Shown here piece after piece: positions 3,223 through 41,461 of a stretch of DNA of 47,157 bases. The stretch's first letter is position 1; every line of letters starts with the position of its first letter. Location: the IMG/VR virus record IMGVR_UViG_3300022187_000056, positions 1 through 47,157 of that record; one strand, written 5' to 3'. Under the pieces are notes generated by a model. The model ran no database searches. It was not told the DNA's origin and was given only the letters and a program-made list of their open reading frames with translations. A program made the position numbers and the translations under genes. Source of the DNA: a virus.

Positions 3223-4038
3223 ATGTTATTGAAAAAAGTAAAGTTAAGTGATGTAGCTCTTATTGAAAACTCAAGAGCTAATGAAGAAGATTGTTCCGAG
3301 CTTATGGAGTCAATTAAAGAATCCGGTTTGATTCAGCCAGTTGTTGTGACTAAAGCTTTTAATGGTAGAGGTAAAAAACCTTATGTATTGGTGGCGGGCA
3401 ATCGTCGTTTTAGGGCCGTTAAAAATTTAGGTGAAGCATCGGTTGACGCTGTTATTAACGACAATATTAAGGATATGGCCGACCTCTTGGTTTTTAATAT
3501 GTCTGAAAACTTGCAACGTAAAGATGTTTCAGCTTTTGAACAAGGTAGACTTCTCAAACTTCTTATTACTAAACATTTCCTAACGAAAAAAGAGTGTTCC
3601 GTTCGTTTAGGTATTACTGAAGCAAGAGTAGAATCGTTACTCAATGCTTTTGGTGCTTTCCCTCAAAAATACACTGAGAAGATTACCACCGATACCAATG
3701 CCGTTAGAAAAAAAGGTTTAGTTGGTTTAAGTACCGCTACAACCGTTGCGAATCTTCAAAAATCTAACCTTATTAGTAGGTCAGAAGGACAAGAAATTTT
3801 AGACGGCGTTCTAAATGGAAAGTATAACTCTACAACTGTTAGAGCAATGGCCGGAACCATAAGAAAAGGTGCATCTTTTAGACAGTTTAAAAATGGTTCT
3901 AAAAGTATTGGTTACACCACTGTTAGGGTTCCTCTTTACGTATCGGAAAAAGAAGACATTGAAGGTGGTATAACAGAATATCTAATGCAGTTGATTTATG
4001 GTGAGAGTAAAGATCATTTTACTCGACCGAGGTTTTAA
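3223..4038 (+). CDS. parB: ParB-like partition/nuclease-domain protein
   Basis: 271 residues. The N-terminal ParB/sulfiredoxin-type domain is clear: SIKESGLIQPVVVTKA near 30-45, VLVAGNRRFRAVKNLGEA near 55-72, and the conserved SENLQRKDVSAFEQGR near 93-108. A helical DNA-binding segment follows (KKECSVRLGITEARVESLL). In ParB proteins these regions form the nucleotide pocket and the centromere-binding HTH. The start is ATG after AAGGAGA. I see no ParA ATPase nearby, so the protein may act alone as regulator or DNA organiser, as in many phages. The next gene begins right after its stop. Confidence 0.85.
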   Translation: MLLKKVKLSDVALIENSRANEEDCSELMESIKESGLIQPVVVTKAFNGRGKKPYVLVAGNRRFRAVKNLGEASVDAVINDNIKDMADLLVFNMSENLQRKDVSAFEQGRLLKLLITKHFLTKKECSVRLGITEARVESLLNAFGAFPQKYTEKITTDTNAVRKKGLVGLSTATTVANLQKSNLISRSEGQEILDGVLNGKYNSTTVRAMAGTIRKGASFRQFKNGSKSIGYTTVRVPLYVSEKEDIEGGITEYLMQLIYGESKDHFTRPRF

Positions 4039-4293
4039 ATGATAACAGTAACAGCAGGTAAGGTGAGCGTTACAGGTAGAAACTTTACAAGTATCTCTCC
4101 CGACTTCCTAAGTGAATTAAGAAAGAGTGCAGGTCTTAGTCATAGGGCGGTGGCTAGTTTAGTAGGTTACAAAAGTTCAACAGGATATAGCGGTTATGAG
4201 TATGGTGAAGCGACTCCTTCAATTGATACGTTCACCAAGATAGTTAAGGCAATTGTGCCTGGTAAAGAGTTAAAGATAAAGGTGGGGTTGTAG
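4039..4293 (+). CDS. Xre/Cro-type HTH protein
   Basis: 84 residues with a lambda-repressor-like HTH: FLSELRKSAGLSHRAVASLV near 24-43, then GYEYGEATPSIDTFTKIVKA. No effector or cleavage domain. The ATG follows the ParB-like stop with no gap, implying coupled translation. A second small HTH protein in the same early unit suggests a two-protein switch, but the palindromes near 1627-2034 cannot be assigned to either from sequence. Confidence 0.75.
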   Translation: MITVTAGKVSVTGRNFTSISPDFLSELRKSAGLSHRAVASLVGYKSSTGYSGYEYGEATPSIDTFTKIVKAIVPGKELKIKVGL

Positions 4294-4345
4294 ATGCCTA
4301 GATATAGAGGAATTAGTAGTAAGGTTATCGTAAGAGGTTAAAATA

Positions 4346-4594
4346 ATGAGTTTAGAATTTATAGTAGGGTCATCAATTGTTGGAGGAATATCTGCACTCT
4401 TGGCGATACTAGGTTTTATTTATTATAAGTATAAAGATAACGAAGACGTTAAGAATATAGTTGATTTCGCCATAACTTTTATAGTCGGCACAGTGTTTTT
4501 AGTATTTTTCATACTGTTTCTCTACAGTGTAGTTATCCCTTTCGTAGGCGCAACGGCCATAGAATGGTGGAACGTAATTGTGAGTTGGTTTTAA
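4346..4594 (+). CDS. small membrane protein, two to three helices
   Basis: 82 residues: hydrophobic segments at about 4-26 (FIVGSSIVGGISALLAILGF) and 40-68 (DFAITFIVGTVFLVFFILFL), with a charged KYKDNEDVK loop between. Such early-expressed small membrane proteins are often involved in superinfection exclusion or host takeover, but nothing here proves a role. It is remote from the lysis genes, so a holin function is less likely. Confidence 0.6.
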   Translation: MSLEFIVGSSIVGGISALLAILGFIYYKYKDNEDVKNIVDFAITFIVGTVFLVFFILFLYSVVIPFVGATAIEWWNVIVSWF

Positions 4595-4612
4595 ACTTAA
4601 AGGGTATTGGTT

Positions 4613-4843
4613 ATGACACCGTTAAACATGTTATTAGTTAGTAATTTTATTTTCACTCTTCACAAACTGGATCGTTTTGAAAGAAAGTCTTTAAATGTTT
4701 GTACTTTATATAGTCGCACAGTTGAAGACTATACTCCATTGTTATGCGGTTGTTCTAAGCAACTTGGTGTACGTAAAAAGTCCAAGAGACTATTTAAGAT
4801 TTGTCAGTTATTGAAAAAAGAAAGAGGTGAGTATGACTTGTGA
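4613..4843 (+). CDS. small basic cysteine-containing protein
   Basis: 76 residues from the ATG at 4613, preceded by AAGGG; an in-frame TTG lies six bases upstream. It contains NVCTLYSR, LLCGCSKQ and FKICQLLKK, with basic residues concentrated at the C-terminus. No family recognised. It overlaps the start of the next small gene by 11 bases. Confidence 0.5.
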   Translation: MTPLNMLLVSNFIFTLHKLDRFERKSLNVCTLYSRTVEDYTPLLCGCSKQLGVRKKSKRLFKICQLLKKERGEYDL

Positions 4844-4964
4844 AATGAAAAAAGAACGCGACGAGCTTGCAAAAGCATTGCTGCAATCGCACGAACAATA
4901 CTATGGTGGTGATGATTACGAGAGAGCAATCCAACTCGCCAAGAGGATAAAGGGGGGAGAGTGA
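4833..4964 (+). CDS. 43-residue hypothetical protein
   Basis: A short frame too small for most gene callers: ATG at 4833 preceded by AAAGAGGTG and stopping at 4964. It is helical and charged (MTCEMKKERDELAKALLQ, then YERAIQLAKRI). Its TGA overlaps the ATG of the following gene (TGATG), the usual coupling in this operon, which is the main support. Confidence 0.55.
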   Translation: MTCEMKKERDELAKALLQSHEQYYGGDDYERAIQLAKRIKGGE

Positions 4965-5167: not shown

Positions 5168-5424
5168 TGAACGATAAAATATTTAAACCCGGTGTTTATT
5201 TAAAACCTAATGGTGACTTAGTTGCAATCTTTACTGAATTGAGTGACGACGGTGTTTACTGGAAAGTGATGGACGGTAGAAAGTGTACCAACAAAGTGTT
5301 AAATTCTTTTTACAAAATGCAAGGTTTACCTAGACCTTATATGGAATGGACTTCCAATTCACCTCGATTAGGGTGGGGTGGAACTGAGTTCTTATTAAAG
5401 TGCGAATACTTAGGTGAGCTTTAA
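5167..5424 (+). CDS. hypothetical protein, last gene of the early rightward unit
   Basis: 85 residues from the ATG at 5167, which overlaps the previous stop; an upstream in-frame ATG at 5146 is less likely because it lies inside the previous gene without a ribosome-binding site. It has KPGVYLKPNGDLVAIF at the start and WTSNSPRLGWGG later. The stop at 5422-5424 interlocks with the stop of a convergent gene through the palindrome TTAA. Confidence 0.6.
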   Translation: MNDKIFKPGVYLKPNGDLVAIFTELSDDGVYWKVMDGRKCTNKVLNSFYKMQGLPRPYMEWTSNSPRLGWGGTEFLLKCEYLGEL

Positions 5425-5585
5425 TTGTTCGCCTTCGCTTTTTTCAATCTGTCCCGCAACTCTTTGGGCATGGGCCATTTTCCCCACATTTTATAGGACT
5501 CATCGATCCAATCGTTGATGAAACGAAGAGTGTATTCTAAGTAATCCAAACGTTTTTTCATGTCGCGTATTTCTTTTTCAGTCAC
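5421..5585 (-). CDS. 54-residue hypothetical protein
   Basis: This frame begins with GTG overlapping the TGA of the upstream gene (GTGA) and ends at a TAA whose complement overlaps the convergent gene's stop. The product is charged and probably helical (TEKEIRDMKKRLDYLEYTL, then MWGKWPMPKELRDRLKKAK). The start/stop overlap and protein-like composition support it, although it is short. No family recognised. Confidence 0.6.
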   Translation of the reverse strand: MTEKEIRDMKKRLDYLEYTLRFINDWIDESYKMWGKWPMPKELRDRLKKAKANN

Positions 5586-5770
5586 CCTTCACTCTCCAAT
5601 AATCTTTTCTTTTTCAAGTAAACCGATCCGTTGAATTTTGTTTCAACTTTAAACTTTGGTTTAGTCGGTCGCCTGTTAAGTCTATTTTTATCTCTAACAG
5701 TATTACAAAACTCTTTTTCACCGTCAGATAATTTAATGTTTTTCAACGCTTCTTTAGTGGTGTTTTTCAT
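5582..5770 (-). CDS. small basic hypothetical protein
   Basis: 62 residues, strongly basic (NRLNRRPTKPKFK, LKKKRLLESEG), so nucleic-acid contact is possible. The ATG overlaps the preceding stop as ATGA and the stop overlaps the next GTG. No known family. Confidence 0.55.
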   Translation of the reverse strand: MKNTTKEALKNIKLSDGEKEFCNTVRDKNRLNRRPTKPKFKVETKFNGSVYLKKKRLLESEG

Positions 5771-6024
5771 TCTATCCTCGCTCGTTCAACAGTTAACTTA
5801 GCTTCTACCAATACTCTCGCTCTATTCAAGCAATCTTGGTAATCCATTATCTTTTTATTTCTTCGCCACATGACAGATGCTAAACAACCAACGCAAGTTA
5901 TCTTCTCTTGATCCAGAGTTGATTCAAACCCCCACAAAGCTTTCGAGTTGCAAAAGTTCTGTTCATGGTGAACTATTGTTTCATCGTATTTACGTTTAAC
6001 GGTCTTGTGGTATTTACTGTTCAT
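5767..6024 (-). CDS. small hypothetical protein with possible zinc site
   Basis: 85 residues, basic N-terminus (MNSKYHKTVKRKYDE), then HHEQNFCNSKALWGF and ITCVGCLASVMWRRNKK. The CxxC at about residues 44-47 plus the upstream cysteine and histidines could bind a metal. It overlaps the upstream zinc-finger gene by 11 bases. No family recognised. Confidence 0.55.
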   Translation of the reverse strand: MNSKYHKTVKRKYDETIVHHEQNFCNSKALWGFESTLDQEKITCVGCLASVMWRRNKKIMDYQDCLNRARVLVEAKLTVERARIE

Positions 6025-9243: not shown

Positions 9244-9320
9244 GGTGTGTATCCGTGCAACGTTAAAAAAGCATTGTAGTAAGCTTCGCAACCTTTAATG
9301 TTTTTCCATTTTTCTTTCAT
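9237..9320 (-). CDS. 27-residue hypothetical peptide
   Basis: ATG overlapping the stop of the helicase gene (ATGA). The product starts MKEKWKNIKGCEAYYNAF and ends GYTPW, with no known relatives in my memory. The overlap mirrors other genes of this operon, which is the main argument for it. Confidence 0.4.
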   Translation of the reverse strand: MKEKWKNIKGCEAYYNAFLTLHGYTPW

Positions 9321-10978
9321 AACATCTCGTTGTTTTCTAACTTCACTATTAACTTTTCCATGTCAACTTTCTTTTCACCCAACGCTTCGGTTATCGTCAT
9401 ACCAAAACAAATATAAAACTTTTTATGTATTGATCTATCGCTATAACCGTAATGAGTTTTAAGGACACCAGCAGCTTTAGCGATTGCTTCACCTAACTTG
9501 CCTTGAGTTTCTATTCTGTCGTTTTGATTTTTCATGGCCCGTAACGCTGCCCCCGCACCCGCCGCATGTCCTACCCTTTCTGCCATGTGAGCGGGACTTT
9601 CAAGTACAGCACCTTCCTCAATTTCCCTCAATGTTTCAGGGTCGATTAAAAACAAATCACCATCTACTTGTTCTGGTAACACTCTCTCACTTGGACCATT
9701 GGTGCGTGAAGATTTTAGTGCTTCTGTTCCACACCAGGGACACTCGGTTAACGCTCTATCATAAGGTGAGTTGCACATAACGTCTGAACAGATACGAAGG
9801 AAGTTTATTTTCTGCCCGGTCTTTTTAATTCTATCAAGGGTCCATTCTCTTTTTTTGCAAGGTAGACCGTGACCGTTCGGACCTGCTATATTACCTACGT
9901 GATCAATGATTATAAGGTGATCTTTACCTTCAGCTACTCTTAACCCGCGTCCCTGCATTTGGAGAACCTTACCCAAACTCTTAGTAGGTCTACACATTGA
10001 AACGCACTCAATACCGGGAACGTCCAGGCCTTCGTCAAAGAGGTCAACATTGATTAAAACTTTTATTTTTTTCTCTTCAAACTTTAATATCCCTTCTAAT
10101 CTTTCCCTGTCGTTAGTAGTACCGTTTAACTCTTTAGCGGGTATGCCAGCTTCTATAAATTTAGCTTGCATGTCTTTAGCTGTCTCAATGTCGGTAGTAA
10201 AAACTATTGTCTGCTTACCCTTGGCAAATTTTAAATAATTTTCAACAACGTCACCGACAATTTGCGATTTCTTTGAAGCTTGTTTCATTGCTTGTTTTGA
10301 GAAGTCTGATTTGTCTGAAGCTTCTTTTAAAAAGTTTTTATAATCGGATCGAGGTATGACGATTTTATATTTACTAAGATAACCATTGTCGATAAACCAT
10401 CTTATAGGCGGTCCTTCAACCATTGTATCGAATACACCATCTGCATGTGAACCTAAACCTTTACGATCAAGTCTTTCAGGTGTTGCAGTTACACCAAGTC
10501 CTCTAGCGTTTTCAAAATACGCAGCGGCTTTACCCCATTTGTTTTCTTTTAAAACGTGAGCGGCTTCATCAATGAACCATTGGTTAACACCTTTCGCCCA
10601 ATTCTTATATAAATCGTAACGAGCTATTAAGGTGTCAACAGATATTACAGTCACCAAGGAATCAGGATCGTAAAATTGCCTACCGTAAAGTCTACGTTGA
10701 GCGGCGATAATACCTCTAACATCTTTTCTTGAAGCTATAATATTATGTTTTATATCGAACTTAGCTAGAGTTAATGAGATTTGTTGAACGAGTTCTTTAC
10801 GATGAACAATCATAGCTGTTGAAATGTTTTGCTCTAAACACTCTTTAACGATTGCGCACATGAGGATAGTTTTACCAGACCCCGTTGCGCTACGTGCCAT
10901 AACATTTTTATAACCAGCGTCCCAGGCATTATAAATATCTGTTTTCAGATTCTCTTGGTAAGGTCTAAGGTTGATCAT
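9317..10978 (-). CDS. superfamily 2 DEAH-like helicase
   Basis: 553 residues from the ATG at 10978 (a GTG at 10987 is also in frame). The motifs are in order: Q-like LRPYQENL, Walker A SATGSGKT, motif II WFIDEAAH, motif III GVTATPERLD, motif V NVDLFDEGLDVPG, motif VI QMQGRGLRV. A CxxxxC...CPWC zinc cluster follows near residue 400 (CSDVMCNSPY, ECPWCG). It should translocate on DNA or unwind branched DNA in replication and recombination, like UvsW-type phage helicases. It is transcribed divergently from 11066. Confidence 0.9.
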   Translation of the reverse strand: MINLRPYQENLKTDIYNAWDAGYKNVMARSATGSGKTILMCAIVKECLEQNISTAMIVHRKELVQQISLTLAKFDIKHNIIASRKDVRGIIAAQRRLYGRQFYDPDSLVTVISVDTLIARYDLYKNWAKGVNQWFIDEAAHVLKENKWGKAAAYFENARGLGVTATPERLDRKGLGSHADGVFDTMVEGPPIRWFIDNGYLSKYKIVIPRSDYKNFLKEASDKSDFSKQAMKQASKKSQIVGDVVENYLKFAKGKQTIVFTTDIETAKDMQAKFIEAGIPAKELNGTTNDRERLEGILKFEEKKIKVLINVDLFDEGLDVPGIECVSMCRPTKSLGKVLQMQGRGLRVAEGKDHLIIIDHVGNIAGPNGHGLPCKKREWTLDRIKKTGQKINFLRICSDVMCNSPYDRALTECPWCGTEALKSSRTNGPSERVLPEQVDGDLFLIDPETLREIEEGAVLESPAHMAERVGHAAGAGAALRAMKNQNDRIETQGKLGEAIAKAAGVLKTHYGYSDRSIHKKFYICFGMTITEALGEKKVDMEKLIVKLENNEML

Positions 10979-18622: not shown

Positions 18623-21600
18623 CTATGTATATGCGGCTGAACTAAATGTAGTACCACCGAATCTAAACTTATGTTTCTTATCGGTACTGTTAATCCAAGA
18701 TTCTCCGTTGGTGGGAGATACAGGGTCAGAAGAAATAACACCAAGGAAACCGTTACCATCGCTTACTGTTTTAGTACCGGGGTTACTTGCGTATACCCAA
18801 AAGTTTGTACTTGTACTGTTAGATGAGTCACCTGTATCACTATGATAAACTAGGTAGTCTCCTGCATCTGCAAAACCGACCATGTTACCTGCTGAAACAC
18901 CATTAGCACCCCTATCAACACCTCTCCATTTAAGTACATCACCACTAGTGTAAAGCTCAGGTCCGGCAAATTGACCTACTGCTTGGTTAGACCCTTCATA
19001 ACTTGTACCAGTACTAAACCTACAAGCACTATCGAATGTGAATCTAGTGTAGGAGCCTGTTTCAGACTTTGTAACTAATCCACCCGCGGTATCTACGATC
19101 TGATTCTGTAACAAGTATCGGCTTGAGTTATAACCATCATTATCACTAAACATCATTAAGTGAGTTGTTCTAGCGGTATCGCTAACAGGATAAGCGTTGA
19201 CATGAAAACTTGTTCTTAAATTATCATCAGGGTTAGCACTCATATTTACAATTATGTAATCACCTACTGCTGCCCTTCCTGCTAATTGAGTACATCCGTT
19301 AGGTTGACCGTCTTGCGCTCTAGCTATTTCAACATCGGAAGAGTTCTTCCATATAAGCGCGACGGTTGTACTAGTTACCACTTGTGTTGAAGCCATAACC
19401 TCAAAGTCACAAATTTGTGTGAATTCGTAACGAGTGTGATCTGTCGCTGAATCACTAACTTTAAGAGAACCTGAATCTTGAACCAATGTTTTAAATAGAA
19501 CGTCACCGCCACCGTTTCTTGAAGTGAACCCATTGTAACCTATGGATTCAACATTAGAATCTAATGCGGTATCTAAAGCTTTCAGAGAGAAGTTAACATC
19601 TGTGGCACTATCAGCAGGACTTACTAAGGAAACTGCAACTAAATAATCACCTACATCAGCTTGACCCACTAAGGCCTTACAAGTTTTATCGCCTGTGCTG
19701 TTTACACTGTCAGAAGAACTAGAAATTAAACTATCACTTGAGTTATACCATTCAATGAACTGTGAGTTGTCTGCACCAGTAGTTGAGAAAGAACAATGGA
19801 AAGATGCAGCTTCAACAAAAGTAAATCGAGAATGATCTCCACCCGGTTCAGTGTAAGTAAATAAAGTCGGAGAATTATTATCCTCAACTGTTTTAAGTAA
19901 ACATTGATTACTTCCGTTTTTAGAAACAAAACCTGATTGCCTATAGTAATCTTCTACTACGTTAACTACAGTAGTTCCACCACCACTAGGGATTATATAA
20001 TCAGAAGCTTGACGGATGGCACTCAATGTAAAGTCTTGATCGAATTGCGCACTATCAGCAGTTGTTTCACAAGTACAGCCGGAAGTAGTTATGTTGTAGA
20101 TGAATAAACCTTCATCGCCATTGGTAGCTGTTTGCTCTATGGCACCAGTAAGTGAAGGTATGGCAGTAAAGAAACCAGGAGTAAAAGTTACGTCAGTTAC
20201 ACCTAAGCCTGTTCTACTGACACTTTGTATGAACGTGCGACCTTGAGAGGTTATAGTAGACGTTCCATTGTTTTGAATCTTGGCAGCAAAACAACTCTCT
20301 TCATTGGTTAGGTTTCCCTGTAAGTCCGCGCCTTGTCTGGCCACATGAATGGTTATAGGTACATCGTGTGCAATACTGTCTGCTGTAGTTCTATACGTTA
20401 AACCCGCCGCCGTTACAGATTGAAAGAATACACCTTCATCACCTTGCAATGCCAAGTTATTAATTGACCCGTAAACCGCAGGTACTTGACCAAAGAAAGA
20501 AGTATTAAATACAACATCTACTGTACCTGTAGCGGTCCTAGTAACAGACTGTATAAACGACTGAGACTGAGAGGTGACACTAGCTGTTGCTCCGTTGTTA
20601 TCAATAACGGCACCGTAGAAGTTAGTGTTAGAAGCTGAAGTATCATAATCAGTCCCTTGTCTCATACACTCAAAAGAGAAGTCTTGGTCAAAGGCGGCAC
20701 TATCAGCAGTTGTATTCAGAGTGAAACCCGAAGTAGTTATAGCTGATATAAAGCAACCTTCGTCACCATTCGAATCTTGCTCGTTAATAGTAGCGTGAAC
20801 TGTAGGTATTTGAGAAAAAAAGCCTGGAGTGAAAACTACATCCACCACACCCAAAGCAGTTCTGTTTACTGATTGAACAAATGTTTGCGATTGAGTTGTT
20901 ATAGCGGCTGTACCGTTATTTGTGACTACGGCCGAGTACAAGTTAAAATGCTCTGCCAGGTTTATACTACCGCCGCCGCCAGGGATATTAATTTGAACTA
21001 CCCCAGGAGAAGATTGAACCGCCGTAGCACCACCACCTGTTACATTAATTTCTGTAACCGCAGCATCAACAGTGACACCTTCATCTTTAATCTCTAAAGC
21101 AGAACCGCCACCACCGCCTACTTGCGCTTCGGTTCCGGCACTGTCGAGTTTATAAAGATTCCCATCACTCTTGAAATATAGTTTAAATCTTCCCGCTGCT
21201 GGATTGGCAGGAGTCGTCTGTTGAACCATTTCCAGTAGATCGTAAACCCCGCCGTTAATGGTTTTATTCGTTAACGTTTGAGTGTGTGAAACAGTTGTTA
21301 CTTCAGCTTCAGAACCTTGTTCACCTGCTTGCCATTTTGAAGCAAGAGCGGTGTTGTGTTCAATAACTACATCTGTAGCATCACTCATCTCTACAGTGAT
21401 ACCAGCATCTACACCACTCGCAGCGTTTCCTCCCTTATTGAGAGTCACATTGGAATCTGTCACATCCAAGGTTGTAGAATTAACTGTAGTAGTGGTTCCA
21501 TCGACCTGAAGATCACCTGAGATTGTAACTTTACCTGCGTTGTCGATTGATAATCTTGCGACTAGTGCAGTTGCTCCGTTTGCTACAGTTTGAATCTCAT

Positions 21601-22432
21601 AAGTACCACCATGTTGAGTATCGGTACTGTTCTCAGCAGCTACGGACTTGACTCTAGCAACGACTACTTCAGCACCGTTTTGATCAGTACCAAGGAAATC
21701 AACGTTACCTAGCTCATCACTTGTTTGAGTCTGTCCACTTCCAGCAATACGACTTTTCTTTAACGCAACTTTCGGTGCTGTTGTAGAGTCTTCAGTGTTT
21801 TGAATTTTAGCGTTAGTGTTACTTGAAGCTCCGTTAACATGAAGTCTCTCGCCAGGTGTAGAAGTACCTAGGCCAACTTTACCATCGCCCTTCACTCTAA
21901 TAATCTCAGACATTGTAGCACCACCGTCAGGAGTACCTTCAATTGTCATGTCTGAACCATGCGCTCCGACTGTAGCGTTATCGGTAGCTACGACTCGAAC
22001 TCGCATCGATAACTCTTCACCAGCAGCATCGTTAGTCGCTGTGAACTCAATGTCACCAATCGAATCACCGTCTTGAGTTTGATCGCCAGTTGTACGAGCT
22101 TTTAAAAACTTTAATACTGGCCCTAAAGCATCGTCGGAAATTTTAGTAATAGTTGATTGTTCACCAGATGATGAAATAGTAACTGCACCAGTTGTGGTGT
22201 TAAGTTGAAATATTTCTCTATCGGTTGTACCGTCAAACATTTTGTAAGACCAGATCGGATCGTTTTGTTGGTCGATCCAATAACCACCAGTACCTAAATT
22301 AGTAGGTCTTGACCCACCATTGGTACAAAATCCTGCACGTACAGCATCTTTAAAATCATTTAGAATTGTCGCTAATTGTGTACCCGACGTTGTTGCCGGG
22401 TTAATGTCTGAAAAGATTGATCCGCTTGCCAT
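18623..22432 (-). CDS. tail fibre / receptor-binding protein
   Basis: 1269 residues immediately downstream of J. The N-terminal 480 residues contain fibre-type beta segments (IFQLNTTTGAVTIS, VGLGTSTPGERLHVNG). Three copies of an about 107-residue module follow at about 496-815 (each with FIQSV-RT, GDEG and TTADS motifs), then three copies of a second, about 125-residue module at about 836-1215 (each with TRFTF/TRYEF and VGDYL/AGDYL motifs). The end (SPTNGESWINSTDKKHKFRF) is a common phage fibre terminus. It likely contacts the host surface; the modules may vary between relatives. ATG with GGAG upstream. Confidence 0.8.
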   Translation of the reverse strand: MASGSIFSDINPATTSGTQLATILNDFKDAVRAGFCTNGGSRPTNLGTGGYWIDQQNDPIWSYKMFDGTTDREIFQLNTTTGAVTISSSGEQSTITKISDDALGPVLKFLKARTTGDQTQDGDSIGDIEFTATNDAAGEELSMRVRVVATDNATVGAHGSDMTIEGTPDGGATMSEIIRVKGDGKVGLGTSTPGERLHVNGASSNTNAKIQNTEDSTTAPKVALKKSRIAGSGQTQTSDELGNVDFLGTDQNGAEVVVARVKSVAAENSTDTQHGGTYEIQTVANGATALVARLSIDNAGKVTISGDLQVDGTTTTVNSTTLDVTDSNVTLNKGGNAASGVDAGITVEMSDATDVVIEHNTALASKWQAGEQGSEAEVTTVSHTQTLTNKTINGGVYDLLEMVQQTTPANPAAGRFKLYFKSDGNLYKLDSAGTEAQVGGGGGSALEIKDEGVTVDAAVTEINVTGGGATAVQSSPGVVQINIPGGGGSINLAEHFNLYSAVVTNNGTAAITTQSQTFVQSVNRTALGVVDVVFTPGFFSQIPTVHATINEQDSNGDEGCFISAITTSGFTLNTTADSAAFDQDFSFECMRQGTDYDTSASNTNFYGAVIDNNGATASVTSQSQSFIQSVTRTATGTVDVVFNTSFFGQVPAVYGSINNLALQGDEGVFFQSVTAAGLTYRTTADSIAHDVPITIHVARQGADLQGNLTNEESCFAAKIQNNGTSTITSQGRTFIQSVSRTGLGVTDVTFTPGFFTAIPSLTGAIEQTATNGDEGLFIYNITTSGCTCETTADSAQFDQDFTLSAIRQASDYIIPSGGGTTVVNVVEDYYRQSGFVSKNGSNQCLLKTVEDNNSPTLFTYTEPGGDHSRFTFVEAASFHCSFSTTGADNSQFIEWYNSSDSLISSSSDSVNSTGDKTCKALVGQADVGDYLVAVSLVSPADSATDVNFSLKALDTALDSNVESIGYNGFTSRNGGGDVLFKTLVQDSGSLKVSDSATDHTRYEFTQICDFEVMASTQVVTSTTVALIWKNSSDVEIARAQDGQPNGCTQLAGRAAVGDYIIVNMSANPDDNLRTSFHVNAYPVSDTARTTHLMMFSDNDGYNSSRYLLQNQIVDTAGGLVTKSETGSYTRFTFDSACRFSTGTSYEGSNQAVGQFAGPELYTSGDVLKWRGVDRGANGVSAGNMVGFADAGDYLVYHSDTGDSSNSTSTNFWVYASNPGTKTVSDGNGFLGVISSDPVSPTNGESWINSTDKKHKFRFGGTTFSSAAYT

Positions 22433-37144: not shown

Positions 37145-37627
37145 TTATCCTCCTAGTTGAAGTCTTGCGACCTCTACGTTTACATTAAAAGTTTCGTTGT
37201 TAGTAACTTGTAATTGTGCTTGGCCAGCAACCACATTCACATTAACATTTACGTTTAACATTCCCACTCTTAACCTACCGTGTACCGAGTCCTTGGTATC
37301 TGTAGCTGAAGTTCTTATAACTCTCATGTATCCCGATCTTACTTTAGTTTTATCATCTGTCCAAATTGTAAATATATAATCTAGCCCGATAAAATCACTT
37401 ATTGCTGTTGTATCAATAACTGTAATACTTGTTGCAGTAGCCGTTCCCTCAACTTTTGTCCATAACAACCCTAACATAGTAGGGTCAATTTCTCCGTCAC
37501 TGTTTAGAACTACAGGTTTACCAGCATCGGGCGCACCTGTAGAAACATCAACATGATCGGTGGTTTCAAAACCAGTAGATTCACCGTAAGCGCCTGAAGT
37601 TTCGGCATACAAAAATTTTTTCGTCAT
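37145..37627 (-). CDS. putative virion structural protein
   Basis: 160 residues. KPVVLNSDGEIDPTMLG resembles short connector motifs in fibre proteins; the C-terminus alternates N and V (LNVNVNVNVVAGQ, FNVNVEVARLQLGG), a regular beta pattern. AGAGGTAGG precedes the ATG. No family assigned. Confidence 0.5.
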   Translation of the reverse strand: MTKKFLYAETSGAYGESTGFETTDHVDVSTGAPDAGKPVVLNSDGEIDPTMLGLLWTKVEGTATATSITVIDTTAISDFIGLDYIFTIWTDDKTKVRSGYMRVIRTSATDTKDSVHGRLRVGMLNVNVNVNVVAGQAQLQVTNNETFNVNVEVARLQLGG

Positions 37628-37726: not shown

Positions 37727-37936
37727 CTAATATGCTAGGTCTTTTAACTCTTCCATTGTCTGTTTTATCTTACTTAAATCGTGTTGAAAAAATTTAAGCT
37801 TTAATTCATTGTAACGTTCATCAGTAATATTAAAGTAAAACTTAGCTTTACCTCTAGAAATAACCTCAAACTTTACAAGTTTTTCACCCTCATTAATCAT
37901 AAAAGCAGCTATCCATAAGTCTCTAGTTTGTATCAT
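37727..37936 (-). CDS. DUF5659-like small protein
   Basis: 69 residues: IQTRDLWIAAFMINEGEKLV followed by FYFNITDERYNELKLKF, similar to DUF5659 proteins found near phage structural genes. Function unknown. The ATG overlaps the upstream stop (ATGA). Confidence 0.5.
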   Translation of the reverse strand: MIQTRDLWIAAFMINEGEKLVKFEVISRGKAKFYFNITDERYNELKLKFFQHDLSKIKQTMEELKDLAY

Positions 37937-38370
37937 TCTCTCACCAACATTTGACCTTTAAGAACAACCATCGATGTCGCGCTAAACGGTTGACCTATTT
38001 TAACTGCAACTTCACCTGTATTAGTCGGTATAGTCGTTTGTATTCCGCCAGGGACAGTTGGACTTAGAAAATACTCTTTGGTTACGTCAAGACCTACAAA
38101 AATATCTTCTGATTTACCAAGGACTCTAATATTACAAAGTGTTGCCGAAGCTTTACTTTCACACACGCCTAAAACATTGGCGTTAGCTTGAGAATCGGCC
38201 AATGCGTTTTTAGCTTCACCATTAGATTTCATCACAACAACTGCACCAACGTAAACACTTGATTCACAAGGAACGTTAGTTAAAACAACATTGGAACCAC
38301 CAATATTTACAGCATTAGTTAACCCTTCTTTTCCATCTGCTGTTTTCTGTACCTTAACTAAGAAACTCAT
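37933..38370 (-). CDS. virion protein made of a domain shared with the collagen-like protein
   Basis: 145 residues. SSVYVGAVVVMKSNGEAKNA, NVLGVCESKASATLCNIRVL, and GEVAVKIGQPFSATSMVVL align in order with the C-terminal 130 residues of the upstream collagen-like protein (AVNKFVRIGAGQECFIATN, VRGIALNAGAIGENIEVLL, GEFVVELGESLGTGAIF). The domain type is frequent at the ends of phage appendage proteins. TAATG coupling; probably co-assembled with its neighbour. Confidence 0.6.
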   Translation of the reverse strand: MSFLVKVQKTADGKEGLTNAVNIGGSNVVLTNVPCESSVYVGAVVVMKSNGEAKNALADSQANANVLGVCESKASATLCNIRVLGKSEDIFVGLDVTKEYFLSPTVPGGIQTTIPTNTGEVAVKIGQPFSATSMVVLKGQMLVRE

Positions 38371-40151
38371 TACAGAATCTCCACCGGAGTTTTAAGATCG
38401 GTGAATATAGCACCAGTACCTAAAGACTCACCTAACTCGACAACAAATTCACCAACTGTAACAGGTGGTGTTTGTACCGCATCTCCATTAGTACCAAGGA
38501 AGAAAGGGTCGTTTAAAATAAAATTAAAAGCAGGGTCTTCAAGTAACCCAAATAATAACACTTCAATATTTTCACCAATTGCACCAGCGTTAAGAGCTAT
38601 ACCTCTAACCTTGGCATCTGAGAAAGTTCCGTTGTTTGTAGCAATAAAGCACTCTTGTCCAGCACCTATACGTACAAACTTATTAACTGCAATCGCTTCA
38701 CCTGCGACAAATGTTTTACTTAATCGTTGAGCGTCACTGGTTACAACAACTTTTGCCCTTCTAGGATTGCCCCCAAAACCTGCCATTGTCGTAACAACAT
38801 CTAACGAAGGCCAATCAGAAATGACAGTAGAAGAACTAACCGTTATGTTGTCACCACAAAAATCAATCTCATCGAAACAATCACCGACTTCCACACCTTC
38901 TTCGTAAAGTGTAAGTTTCGTTTCAGGTGTAATATTTATTTGTGTTGGATCGGTTCCATCAACTTCTACAGTAGCGTTTGAAAAATTTAATGATTGAGCA
39001 TTACCGACTAATACGCCATCGAGTAGTACAGGTATCTCGGATAATCCACCACCACCGCTACCGCTTCCACCACCGCCCATAACGGAATAATAAATATTGT
39101 GAAGTAGAGGTAATGAAATAATATTGGTGGTGATTTCGGTTCCATCTGAAAACTGGAACGCCATATAGAATTTATCTCTACCACTTTTTCGTAAATCAAT
39201 ATTGGTTACTACAGGTGCGTCTTGTCCATCACGACCTTGAAAACCGCGTTCACCTCTTTCACCTTTTGCCCCTATAGGACCAGCGACACCTCTAGGGCCA
39301 CGCTCACCAATTAGAGAAGCTTTATAATCTTCTTCACTTCCATCGTTATCTTCTAACCATAGTTGATAGGCTGAAAGTCCTGGTACGCCTGGTTTACCTC
39401 GTTGACCTCTCGGACCTCGTTCACCATCTTCACCTTTTTCACCAGTATCGCCTTTCTCACCTTGATCACCTTTTAGAGTTGCCAAGAAATCAAGCTGAGT
39501 ACCTTCGTTATCTTCTGCCCATAAATCAAACGCTGACTTACCGTCTTGTCCAGGTTTACCTTTCTGTCCTCGCATACCTCTAGGGCCACGCAACAATTCT
39601 AGAAACTCTTCTTCAGTTCCTTCGTTGTTCTCAGACCATATTTCGTAAGCTGACTTACCGTCTAATCCTGGCTCACCTTGTTTACCTTTCTGCCCTCTCG
39701 GACCACGACCACCTTTTAAAGATTCAACATCTTCATCGGATAGATCGGAGAACTTTAATTTTAATTTATCTATTTGGTTATCGATAAAACCAAGGACTTG
39801 ATTGTAAACTTTATCTTTGTGTTCTTCGAAATCGAAGTCAGCACCGTCTTTACCTTTCTGTCCTTTCGGACCTCTTGGACCGCGAATAGATTTTAAATCT
39901 TCATCAGATAAATCAGAAAAGTTTAATTTTAGTTCGCGTTTTTCTTGATCGGTAAGTCTGAATAATTCTTTATTTTCAACAATAGATTTTCGGACAAGCT
40001 CTAGAATTTCAATCTTGTGAGACTCAAAATCAAAGTCCTCACCGTTTTTACCTGGGAACCCTCTTGGTCCTCTTGCTCCCCTGATATTCTGAGAGTCCAG
40101 CTTATTATTAATGATAGCGTCGATCAACGCTAAAATAGCTATCTTATCCAC
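38370..40151 (-). CDS. collagen-like virion protein
   Basis: 593 residues. Six collagen G-X-Y blocks lie at about 25-38, 91-104, 147-165, 188-205, 228-258 and 282-311. They are separated by two DFDF...SDLSDED helical modules and three SAYxxW...NEG modules of about 22 residues. A glycine-rich linker near 360 precedes a beta region and the C-terminal domain shared with the next gene. Collagen blocks form trimers, so this is probably a flexible trimeric fibre on head or neck. GTG start; 29 bases after the portal stop. Confidence 0.8.
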   Translation of the reverse strand: MDKIAILALIDAIINNKLDSQNIRGARGPRGFPGKNGEDFDFESHKIEILELVRKSIVENKELFRLTDQEKRELKLNFSDLSDEDLKSIRGPRGPKGQKGKDGADFDFEEHKDKVYNQVLGFIDNQIDKLKLKFSDLSDEDVESLKGGRGPRGQKGKQGEPGLDGKSAYEIWSENNEGTEEEFLELLRGPRGMRGQKGKPGQDGKSAFDLWAEDNEGTQLDFLATLKGDQGEKGDTGEKGEDGERGPRGQRGKPGVPGLSAYQLWLEDNDGSEEDYKASLIGERGPRGVAGPIGAKGERGERGFQGRDGQDAPVVTNIDLRKSGRDKFYMAFQFSDGTEITTNIISLPLLHNIYYSVMGGGGSGSGGGGLSEIPVLLDGVLVGNAQSLNFSNATVEVDGTDPTQINITPETKLTLYEEGVEVGDCFDEIDFCGDNITVSSSTVISDWPSLDVVTTMAGFGGNPRRAKVVVTSDAQRLSKTFVAGEAIAVNKFVRIGAGQECFIATNNGTFSDAKVRGIALNAGAIGENIEVLLFGLLEDPAFNFILNDPFFLGTNGDAVQTPPVTVGEFVVELGESLGTGAIFTDLKTPVEIL

Positions 40152-40180: not shown

Positions 40181-41461
40181 TTAGTTTTGTGATCTTTTCA
40201 AATAATTTAAAACCGCTCCATTTAATTCTTCTTCTCTAGGGTCTGGTGCAGGTTCTTTAGTTTGTGACTCAATCACTTCATCAAGTTTATCTACAGGTGT
40301 GTAGTTATTCGTAGCAATAAAATATCGATCACCGCCTTCATAAGGTGCTTTACCTTCAGAAACACGAATCTGGTTTGGTGTAATCGCGCCAGCTTGCATG
40401 AGTCTTGTAAAGTATTGTGAACGAGTTTCCATATCTCCGCGAAAAACTGCCTGAAGATCGATTTCACTTTTTAATCCATTAAAACTATTAGACAGCAATT
40501 TAACATCTGCCTCGATTTCTAAAGCTCTCGCCCATGCATCTAAAGTATCCGTTGCAACTTCTAAGTTAGAGTTTTCAACGTTATTAAATGTAGCTGCTTT
40601 AATATCGAAAAGTTTTGTTGGAGGTATACGTAAGAATCTAGCAATTTCCAAGACTGAAAATTCTCTTGATTCTAAAAATTGTAATACTTGAGGGTCGTGA
40701 GAAATAGCACTGTATTTCAGACCTTGTTCTAAGATTGCTGTTCCACCAACTTTACGACCACTATGGGCGCTATCCCAACTCTCTTTCAGTCTTTCCATAG
40801 CGTCAGGACTAAGAGTTGATTCTGTACTTAACGTACCCGATGGCATACCACCGTTTGAGAATAAAGAGTTAGCGAACTTATCTGCACCCTTGGCAGTACC
40901 AAGAGTCTCGGCAGCATATTCTAAAATACCTAGACCGTGAATACCGTCTTTAGTATGAAAATTTGAAACTTTGTAAATATCTCTTTTCTGCAAGTAAGCG
41001 TCAGGGTCGCGACTTGTTAAGCCACCACCGACAATTCTATAAACCAATTCGTTGGTGTCACCTCTTCTCATAGGTTGAACATGACTTGAAGGAATTGGCC
41101 AAAGAGCAACAACTCTACCTGCTAGGTCGCGCTCTATTTCAGCATACCCGTTTCCATAAATTAACGCTTGCTGAATTAAGAAAATACGAAACATCATACT
41201 GTTTGTTTCGCCATTTGGAGACAAACGTAAAAGCTTGTCTACCGTATTATTCATTTGTACTTCGTTGTCTTTATCTTTCACTCGCCAAGGTAACTTAGCT
41301 ACTTGAGTAGAGATATAGACGACACCGCTGTAGAAGGCGCTAACCTGCATAGCAGAGTCGTCATTTACGTAAGTACCACCAGAAAAATAAGACAACCTAC
41401 TGTTTAGTTTAGGTTGAGTCTCTACATATTTCTTTCTATTGAAAAAAGAAAAGATTCCCAT
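40181..41461 (-). CDS. HK97-type portal protein
   Basis: 426 residues: MGIFSFFNRKK start, then SAFYSGVVYISTQVAKLPWR, the portal family core, GNGYAEIERDLAGRVVALWP, FSVLEIARFLRIPPTKLF, and TPNQIRVSEGKAPYEGGDRY at the end. The 12-subunit ring forms the packaging channel at the special vertex. ATG; weak ribosome-binding site. It lies downstream of the capsid genes instead of next to TerL, which is unusual. Confidence 0.9.
   Translation of the reverse strand: MGIFSFFNRKKYVETQPKLNSRLSYFSGGTYVNDDSAMQVSAFYSGVVYISTQVAKLPWRVKDKDNEVQMNNTVDKLLRLSPNGETNSMMFRIFLIQQALIYGNGYAEIERDLAGRVVALWPIPSSHVQPMRRGDTNELVYRIVGGGLTSRDPDAYLQKRDIYKVSNFHTKDGIHGLGILEYAAETLGTAKGADKFANSLFSNGGMPSGTLSTESTLSPDAMERLKESWDSAHSGRKVGGTAILEQGLKYSAISHDPQVLQFLESREFSVLEIARFLRIPPTKLFDIKAATFNNVENSNLEVATDTLDAWARALEIEADVKLLSNSFNGLKSEIDLQAVFRGDMETRSQYFTRLMQAGAITPNQIRVSEGKAPYEGGDRYFIATNNYTPVDKLDEVIESQTKEPAPDPREEELNGAVLNYLKRSQN

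Follow-up and report, generated by a model that had tools for sequence, protein, structure and literature searches.

The closest described system to the locus analysed here is the neck fibre of the Anabaena myophage A-1(L), in whose record gp80, gp81 and gp82 bear the annotation neck fibre. There, gp82 forms the base of five roughly 100-nm bead-chain fibres set on a 15-mer ring, its C-terminal part (gp82C) being a trimeric bead that is followed by about 14 gp81 trimers, with gp80 placed at the tip; N-terminal beta-hairpins of gp81 are said to join the beads, and gp80 bears a carbohydrate module, for which the authors found no binding to the host (PMC10966104). gp82C was too flexible for the virion map and is not resolved in PDB 8KEG; it was modelled with AlphaFold2 and placed in a 6 A map obtained for the recombinant fibre. 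The gp80-82 genes lie far from the other structural genes (PMC10966104). Concerning collagen, the EPclA-D proteins of E. coli prophages join a collagen rod to helical trimerising segments; a prophage collagen protein melts near 42 C, is trimerised by its coil and C-terminal domains, and shows in electron micrographs a bend between coiled coil and collagen (PMC3368898). For SPP1 gp12, PMC7602432 lists a predicted collagen-like trimer located at the hexon centres of the capsid. The lactococcal neck passage structure is an elongated collar trimer that combines a helical stalk with a variable binding part; its N-terminal domain is BppU-like and its gene follows that of the receptor-binding protein; the accessible sections of PMC9692632 describe no collagen stem for it. 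Among the titles listed in a literature search, none concerned a collagen-like neck fibre of the kind considered below; one listed article, PMC3741392, contains both "collagen" and "neck fiber".

The stretch studied here (the window, 47,157 bases in all) is a virus record of an uncultured tailed phage. Its minus strand carries, in this order, TerL, protease, MCP, two small genes, the portal, a gene for a collagen-like protein that starts 29 bases past the portal gene end, several small genes, a head-tail adaptor, a tail terminator (weak match, 8.8e-4), a minor tail protein, a tail assembly chaperone, the tape measure and J, so that the collagen gene occupies the head-to-neck part of a siphophage-like genome. 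As in A-1(L), the stem gene comes first and bead genes come after, the first bead being homologous to gp82C and the later genes encoding bead domains and a putative gp81-like hook. Unlike A-1(L), the stem is interrupted collagen following a 24-aa helix, in place of the 125-residue gp82N, and its gene adjoins the portal in a siphophage-like gene set, whereas A-1(L) is a myophage; since gp80-82 are remote from other structural genes there, gene order is not conserved between the two. The features of the locus, in window coordinates, are:

40181-41461, minus strand: HK97-type portal gene (Pfam Phage_portal, 2e-83)
38370-40151, minus strand: whole collagen-stem gene (593 aa, GTG start; Pfam Collagen, 2.9e-18)
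40080-40151, minus strand: N-terminal 24 aa, candidate anchor (helix predicted at residues 3-19, low confidence)
40035-40079, minus strand: G-X-Y block 1 (5 triplets)
39882-40034, minus strand: DFDF-type helical module H1 (51 aa)
39837-39881, minus strand: G-X-Y block 2 (5 triplets)
39714-39836, minus strand: DFDF-type helical module H2 (41 aa, the family's most frequent length)
39651-39713, minus strand: G-X-Y block 3 (7 triplets)
39588-39650, minus strand: SAY module S1 (21 aa)
39534-39587, minus strand: G-X-Y block 4 (6 triplets)
39471-39533, minus strand: SAY module S2 (21 aa)
39372-39470, minus strand: G-X-Y block 5 (11 triplets)
39309-39371, minus strand: SAY module S3 (21 aa)
39219-39308, minus strand: G-X-Y block 6 (10 triplets, with the family's DGxDAP junction at its end)
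39081-39218, minus strand: conserved linker domain (consensus APxIxDI...FxFSDG..IETN.I.LP; modelled as beta strands with low confidence)
39045-39080, minus strand: Gly-rich stretch
38373-38744, minus strand: C-terminal domain "bead A" (homologous to A-1(L) gp82 residues 128-238; PHROG 4368 and 30025)
37933-38370, minus strand: "bead B" protein, the next gene after the collagen gene (145 aa)
37145-37627, minus strand: 160-aa hook protein, candidate chain or tip component (N-terminal ~60 aa similar to the start of A-1(L) gp81)

The product belongs to the Pfam Collagen family (PF01391), the profile scoring 65.8 bits against a cut-off of 27.2. Residues 25-311 (39219-40079) make up the G-X-Y region, whose 44 triplets are distributed over six blocks and are interrupted by two DFDF-type segments followed by three SAY-type ones. 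The 44 triplets in runs of at least 5 compare with a maximum of 10 in 10,000 residue shuffles, and a scan of all other open stretches of at least 60 aa in the window gave a single run of 4 triplets, in the tape-measure ORF. The first-pass annotation had described these same six blocks, with two DFDF...SDLSDED and three SAYxxW...NEG segments between them, at 39215-40090, which agrees with our limits within 11 bases and is borne out by the ORF anatomy, the Pfam match and the shuffles; its extent is that of the G-X-Y region, and the N-terminal helix, the linker, the Gly-rich stretch, the bead and the portal neighbour complete the picture. The N-terminal segment has the consensus MxKxVLLALIxxxVxxK among 14 proteins. 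In the Pfam scan of the protein (E up to 1) only Collagen lies above its cut-off, the PfN, Pf2 and PfC domains were not recognised, and no BppU-like family is listed.

Charged residues occupy 55% of the X and Y positions, and Pro accounts for 18% of X and 11% of Y. This composition is in keeping with the proposal, also made from the sequence beforehand, that the blocks would be stabilised by charge; the absence of prolyl hydroxylation in the host is an assumption. With a rise of 2.9 A per collagen residue (PMC3368898), the 132 collagen residues would span ~38 nm. The two AlphaFold models obtained are poor, with mean pLDDT of 44.9 and 49.4.

The place of the gene is constant among relatives (numbered L below). 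A portal search yielded 22 loci, of which 18 were examined, L007, L009 and L010 being contigs of L003-L005 that bear the identical collagen ORF and L027 stopping inside the portal. One of the 18, L023, ends 10 bases after the portal; in 17 of the 17 others (14 distinct, since L015, L016 and L025 are near copies of L014) the first plus-strand ORF of at least 60 aa past the portal is an interrupted-collagen ORF. A search with the helical module only gave 13 viral loci and one genome contig. Four of these 14 are contigs already in the portal set (L032, L033 and L040, equal to L019, L018 and L012, and L017), and in all ten remaining ones the ORF immediately upstream belongs to the portal family, the gap being -11 to +33 bases. 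The interrupted-collagen architecture is thus fixed beside the portal in 22 lineages, i.e. 21 uncultured relatives and the window. The closest relative found to bear the gene is 61% identical over the protein.

Cultured phages are more distant. Among 50,697 phage records the whole collagen protein has no match at 1e-5, while its C-terminal part gives six weak matches at up to 0.01, four of them in Nostoc/Anabaena phages. At the DNA level, 51 bases of block 5 match a tail-fibre gene of an Acinetobacter phage. Portal matches in cultured phages are all below 60% identity, and at most 34% among the 40 matches listed. One relative, L031 (RXKB01000049.1, 1-16442), carries the phage structural cluster of the family within a metagenome-assembled genome (MAG) binned as Candidatus Dependentiae. 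Matches to its protein were found in 20 of 101 genomes of that phylum; those listed, apart from its own gene, cover query residues 234 to 384, centred on the long G-X-Y block. No host is claimed from this possible hint, since the MAG, at 2.4 Mb, exceeds the 0.7-1.8 Mb of the other genomes listed, which makes mis-binning likely.

The interruptions of the stems are quantised. In 24 ORFs, which include the partial L017, L038 and L043 and the first half of L041, we counted 72 non-SAY interruptions, taking as such any segment above 2 aa other than the SAY type and leaving out breaks of 2 aa and, in L022 and L024, the long N-terminal parts; the class thereby takes in an 18-aa and a 54-aa segment unlike the module, and an 88-aa one holding two modules. 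Lengths of 33 aa (16 cases), 41 aa (22), 56 aa (7) and 59 aa (9) recur, and the 51-aa length of H1 is found in the window, L006 and L008. A core of the LKLKFxxL type is present in 55 of the 72 segments, with 86 copies in total. Of the 31 distances between successive cores, 28 measure exactly 15 residues, two 30 and one 47, and the last core lies 17 residues before the next Gly in 48 of the 55. The helical modules carry a tandem unit of 15, unlike the coils of EPclA-D, which vary by multiples of 7 residues (PMC3368898). The best match of the module among the cultured-phage records has an E of 0.3, with nothing convincing. The comparison of block numbers among relatives, proposed in the first-pass annotation, shows that they do vary. 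Triplet numbers range from 26 to 49 per stem in the 19 stems with a recognised linker. In 9 of these 19 the distance from N-terminus to linker is 304-311 aa despite differing module mixes (232-347 aa in the others), which may be a coincidence.

The SAY segments, SA(Y/F)xxW...N(E/D)G, share 9-10 of 21 residues pairwise in the window, and are 21 aa long in 9 of 11 cases in the family. With E up to 10, a 27-aa SAY query finds matches in 299 of the 50,697 phage records, the best at 2e-4; 14 among the best 20 of these are annotated as tail fibre, tail spike or tail protein. The insert thus resembles stretches in tail fibres of cultured phages. The first-pass annotation had read both kinds of segment as hinges between rigid triple helices, which would give a jointed fibre. 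Such a fibre is plausible, and a bend has been observed in a prophage collagen protein, but its hinges are unproven. The SAY segments appear in a low-confidence model as two short helices and are tail-fibre-like, so that a hinge role was not adopted for them; for the DFDF segments, there called helices, a better description is that of helical modules in which a 15-residue unit repeats exactly. A repeat of 15 has been described for right-handed coiled coils (PMC3368898), so the modules may be matched to the collagen superhelix, itself right-handed, and act as stiff, in-register splices rather than as hinges. A pentadecad right-handed coil as such was kept as an idea only, the poor model interrupting the helix around LKLKF.

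The C-terminal end of the protein relates the stem to the neck fibre of A-1(L). Residues 476-589 align to residues 127-238 of the gp82 sequence in PDB 8KEG, with an E of 7.2e-6 for the whole protein, 5.7e-7 for the C-terminal part (phmmer) and 1.1e-9 for a four-sequence profile, the next-best matches being at 0.46 (phmmer) and 0.38 (profile). hhalign gives a probability of 96% for bead A against gp82C of cyanophages N1 and YongM2 and only 52% against their gp81; N1 gp82 and the 8KEG chain belong to the same family (1.5e-122), and PHROG 4368 and 30025 are common to bead A and the gp82 family. These alignments establish bead A as a homologue of gp82C, the first bead of the A-1(L) neck fibre. No counterpart of the gp82N neck anchor was found by sequence, the whole collagen protein aligning only to gp82 residues 127-238. 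It should be noted that Acidovorax phage ACP17 has a similar bead directly behind genes labelled as tail fibre; hence, bead A alone does not mean neck.

Beads are also encoded beyond the collagen gene. Profiles of bead A, bead B and the hook were built from the window, L006, L008 and L012 (for the hook also L011) and run against the 830 ORFs of 25 loci at E up to 1e-3; besides three reference phages, their matches fall only in the collagen gene and the genes shortly after it. For the count per lineage we left out near copies (L015, L016 and L025 of L014; L042 and L043 of L041 and L036), loci of the same contigs (L007, L009, L010) and truncated ones (L027, L023, L038), which leaves 22 lineages. 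Bead A is on the collagen protein and bead B on the next gene in six of them, four of the six being the profile training set; in L041, bead A sits on the second of two collagen ORFs. The arrangement is reversed in three (L014, L024, L031), and a single bead is found on the collagen protein in two, only B in L011 and only A in L037, so a bead B homologue forms the C-terminal domain of the collagen protein itself in L011, L014, L024 and L031. Pairwise blastp gave E of 3e-21, 2e-20, 1e-29, 5e-25 and 2e-42, each for a single comparison. This trading of places between neighbouring genes suggests that both products would belong to one shared fibre. In 11 of the 22 lineages, the partial L017 among them, neither bead was detected by these profiles, so a bead chain cannot be general.

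In the A-1(L) locus, bead A matches gp82 (2.8e-14) and gp81 (1e-8), and bead B and the hook both match gp81 (2e-7 each), these being E-values for one small locus with a handful of ORFs. hhalign relates bead B to gp81 of N1/YongM2 at 47%, to gp82C at 1.1% and to bead A at 27%; the last value is weak, and bead A and bead B were not merged into one family. Bead B has no match in PHROGs. The downstream proteins share their N-terminal segment with gp81. Hook and bead profiles both match the next gene of L014, whereas two different genes encode hook and bead B in the window. In L012 the hook protein (9271-10635), encoded a few genes past the collagen gene, has 454 aa and a DUF2793 domain (4.3e-14), as compared with 160 aa in the window, and could be an exchangeable tip.

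Taking these data together, a modular collagen rod encoded right after the portal and ending in a domain related to a neck fibre is probably the stem of a head or neck fibre. To this reading, in which the gene product would be the stem of a trimeric collagen/coiled-coil fibre carrying bead proteins, we assign a probability of roughly 55%. Each of the three chains would begin with the short N-terminal helix, the candidate anchor; together they would form a rod of short collagen triple helices with helical modules between them, continuing through the conserved linker domain into a globular trimeric bead that would serve as trimer cap. Bead A could then take up the proteins encoded next, bead B and after it those with the gp81-like hook, as further beads or as a tip, in the way gp82C docks gp81 in A-1(L). 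Without hydroxyproline, the register of the three chains would depend on the helical modules and the beads. As the stem is encoded with the portal, the fibre is probably mounted at the neck or head, be it at the portal vertex, the neck or the capsid, and it would likely serve as a long accessory arm towards the cell surface, or control other fibres. Such an organisation would resemble the rods with helical trimerising segments of EPclA-D, and would share with the lactococcal neck passage structure the elongated trimer with helical stalk and variable binding part.

A related proposal keeps the fibre on the head but distributes many trimers over the capsid lattice in the manner of SPP1 gp12, a short protein of about 64 aa, with the beads as cement-type domains. 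The collagen gene does lie in the head module, the gp82 and gp81 homologues of YongM2 are annotated "head decoration protein D", and Phage_cement_2 is matched below cut-off by the N1 gp82 homologue (0.0022) and by the L031 bead (1.7e-4); gp12 itself is likewise predicted to be a collagen-like trimer on the head. On the other side, Phage_cement_2 is not matched by the window protein at E up to 1, the bead finds its best match in a neck-fibre protein, the neighbour that stays constant is the portal and not the capsid gene, and gp12 binds capsid hexons whereas the present protein is a multi-module stem of 593 aa with a bead. We consider capsid decoration unlikely, though a serious contender. Portal adjacency would also suit an internal or assembly protein, such as a scaffold or a portal chaperone, a role that is highly improbable given the collagen stem, the neck-fibre bead homology and the variable C-termini, all of which suit an external fibre.

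The other location to be weighed is the tail, the gene coding for a side or tip fibre and merely being located in the head module. The best PHROG matches are called "tail fiber protein" (phrog_15437 at 1e-29), but they cover the collagen, SAY and helical stretches and not the bead. The tail-protein matches of the SAY query point the same way, as do the Phage Tail Collar domain in the gene following the L021 collagen gene and the 19 weak cultured-phage matches of the L019 protein (best E 7e-5), 18 of them in staphylococcal phage records. Against these stand the distance to the tail genes, with the tape measure ~8 kb and J ~12 kb away, and the portal neighbour, constant in the loci examined; a tail fibre is accordingly rather improbable. 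The stem of a head or neck fibre hence remains our preferred reading. More tentatively, the family may represent a class of portal-linked neck fibres in which units of fixed size (Gly-X-Y triplets, SAY inserts of 21 aa, and helical modules growing by 15 residues) determine the reach, and exchangeable beads polymerise or dock partners. If this is true, stem length would be tunable by adding or removing units, and beads could be exchanged. Countable modules and homology to a neck fibre of known make-up render a little-understood virion part directly testable, and the stems are natural Pro-poor, highly charged collagen spliced to helical modules, and might be used as building elements in the design of jointed or stiff collagen rods.

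Three further observations concern single loci. In L041 the collagen protein is spread over two ORFs, 3929-4870 (stem) and 5237-5932 (collagen and bead A), for which a real split, a frameshift or an assembly error are all possible. In the window, a 1269-aa ORF at 18623-22432 adjoins J and shows an H-type lectin match (0.0018, below cut-off), which makes it a candidate receptor-binding protein. Finally, six relatives without a bead have, soon after the collagen gene, ORFs whose start looks by eye like a Sec signal peptide, which is odd for a virion cluster; that of L021 is the one with the Phage Tail Collar domain:

L013: 5277-6113
L021: 4211-7525
L026: 3020-4459 and 4469-5005
L034: 7305-9257
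L035: 6953-8878
L036: 8007-8906
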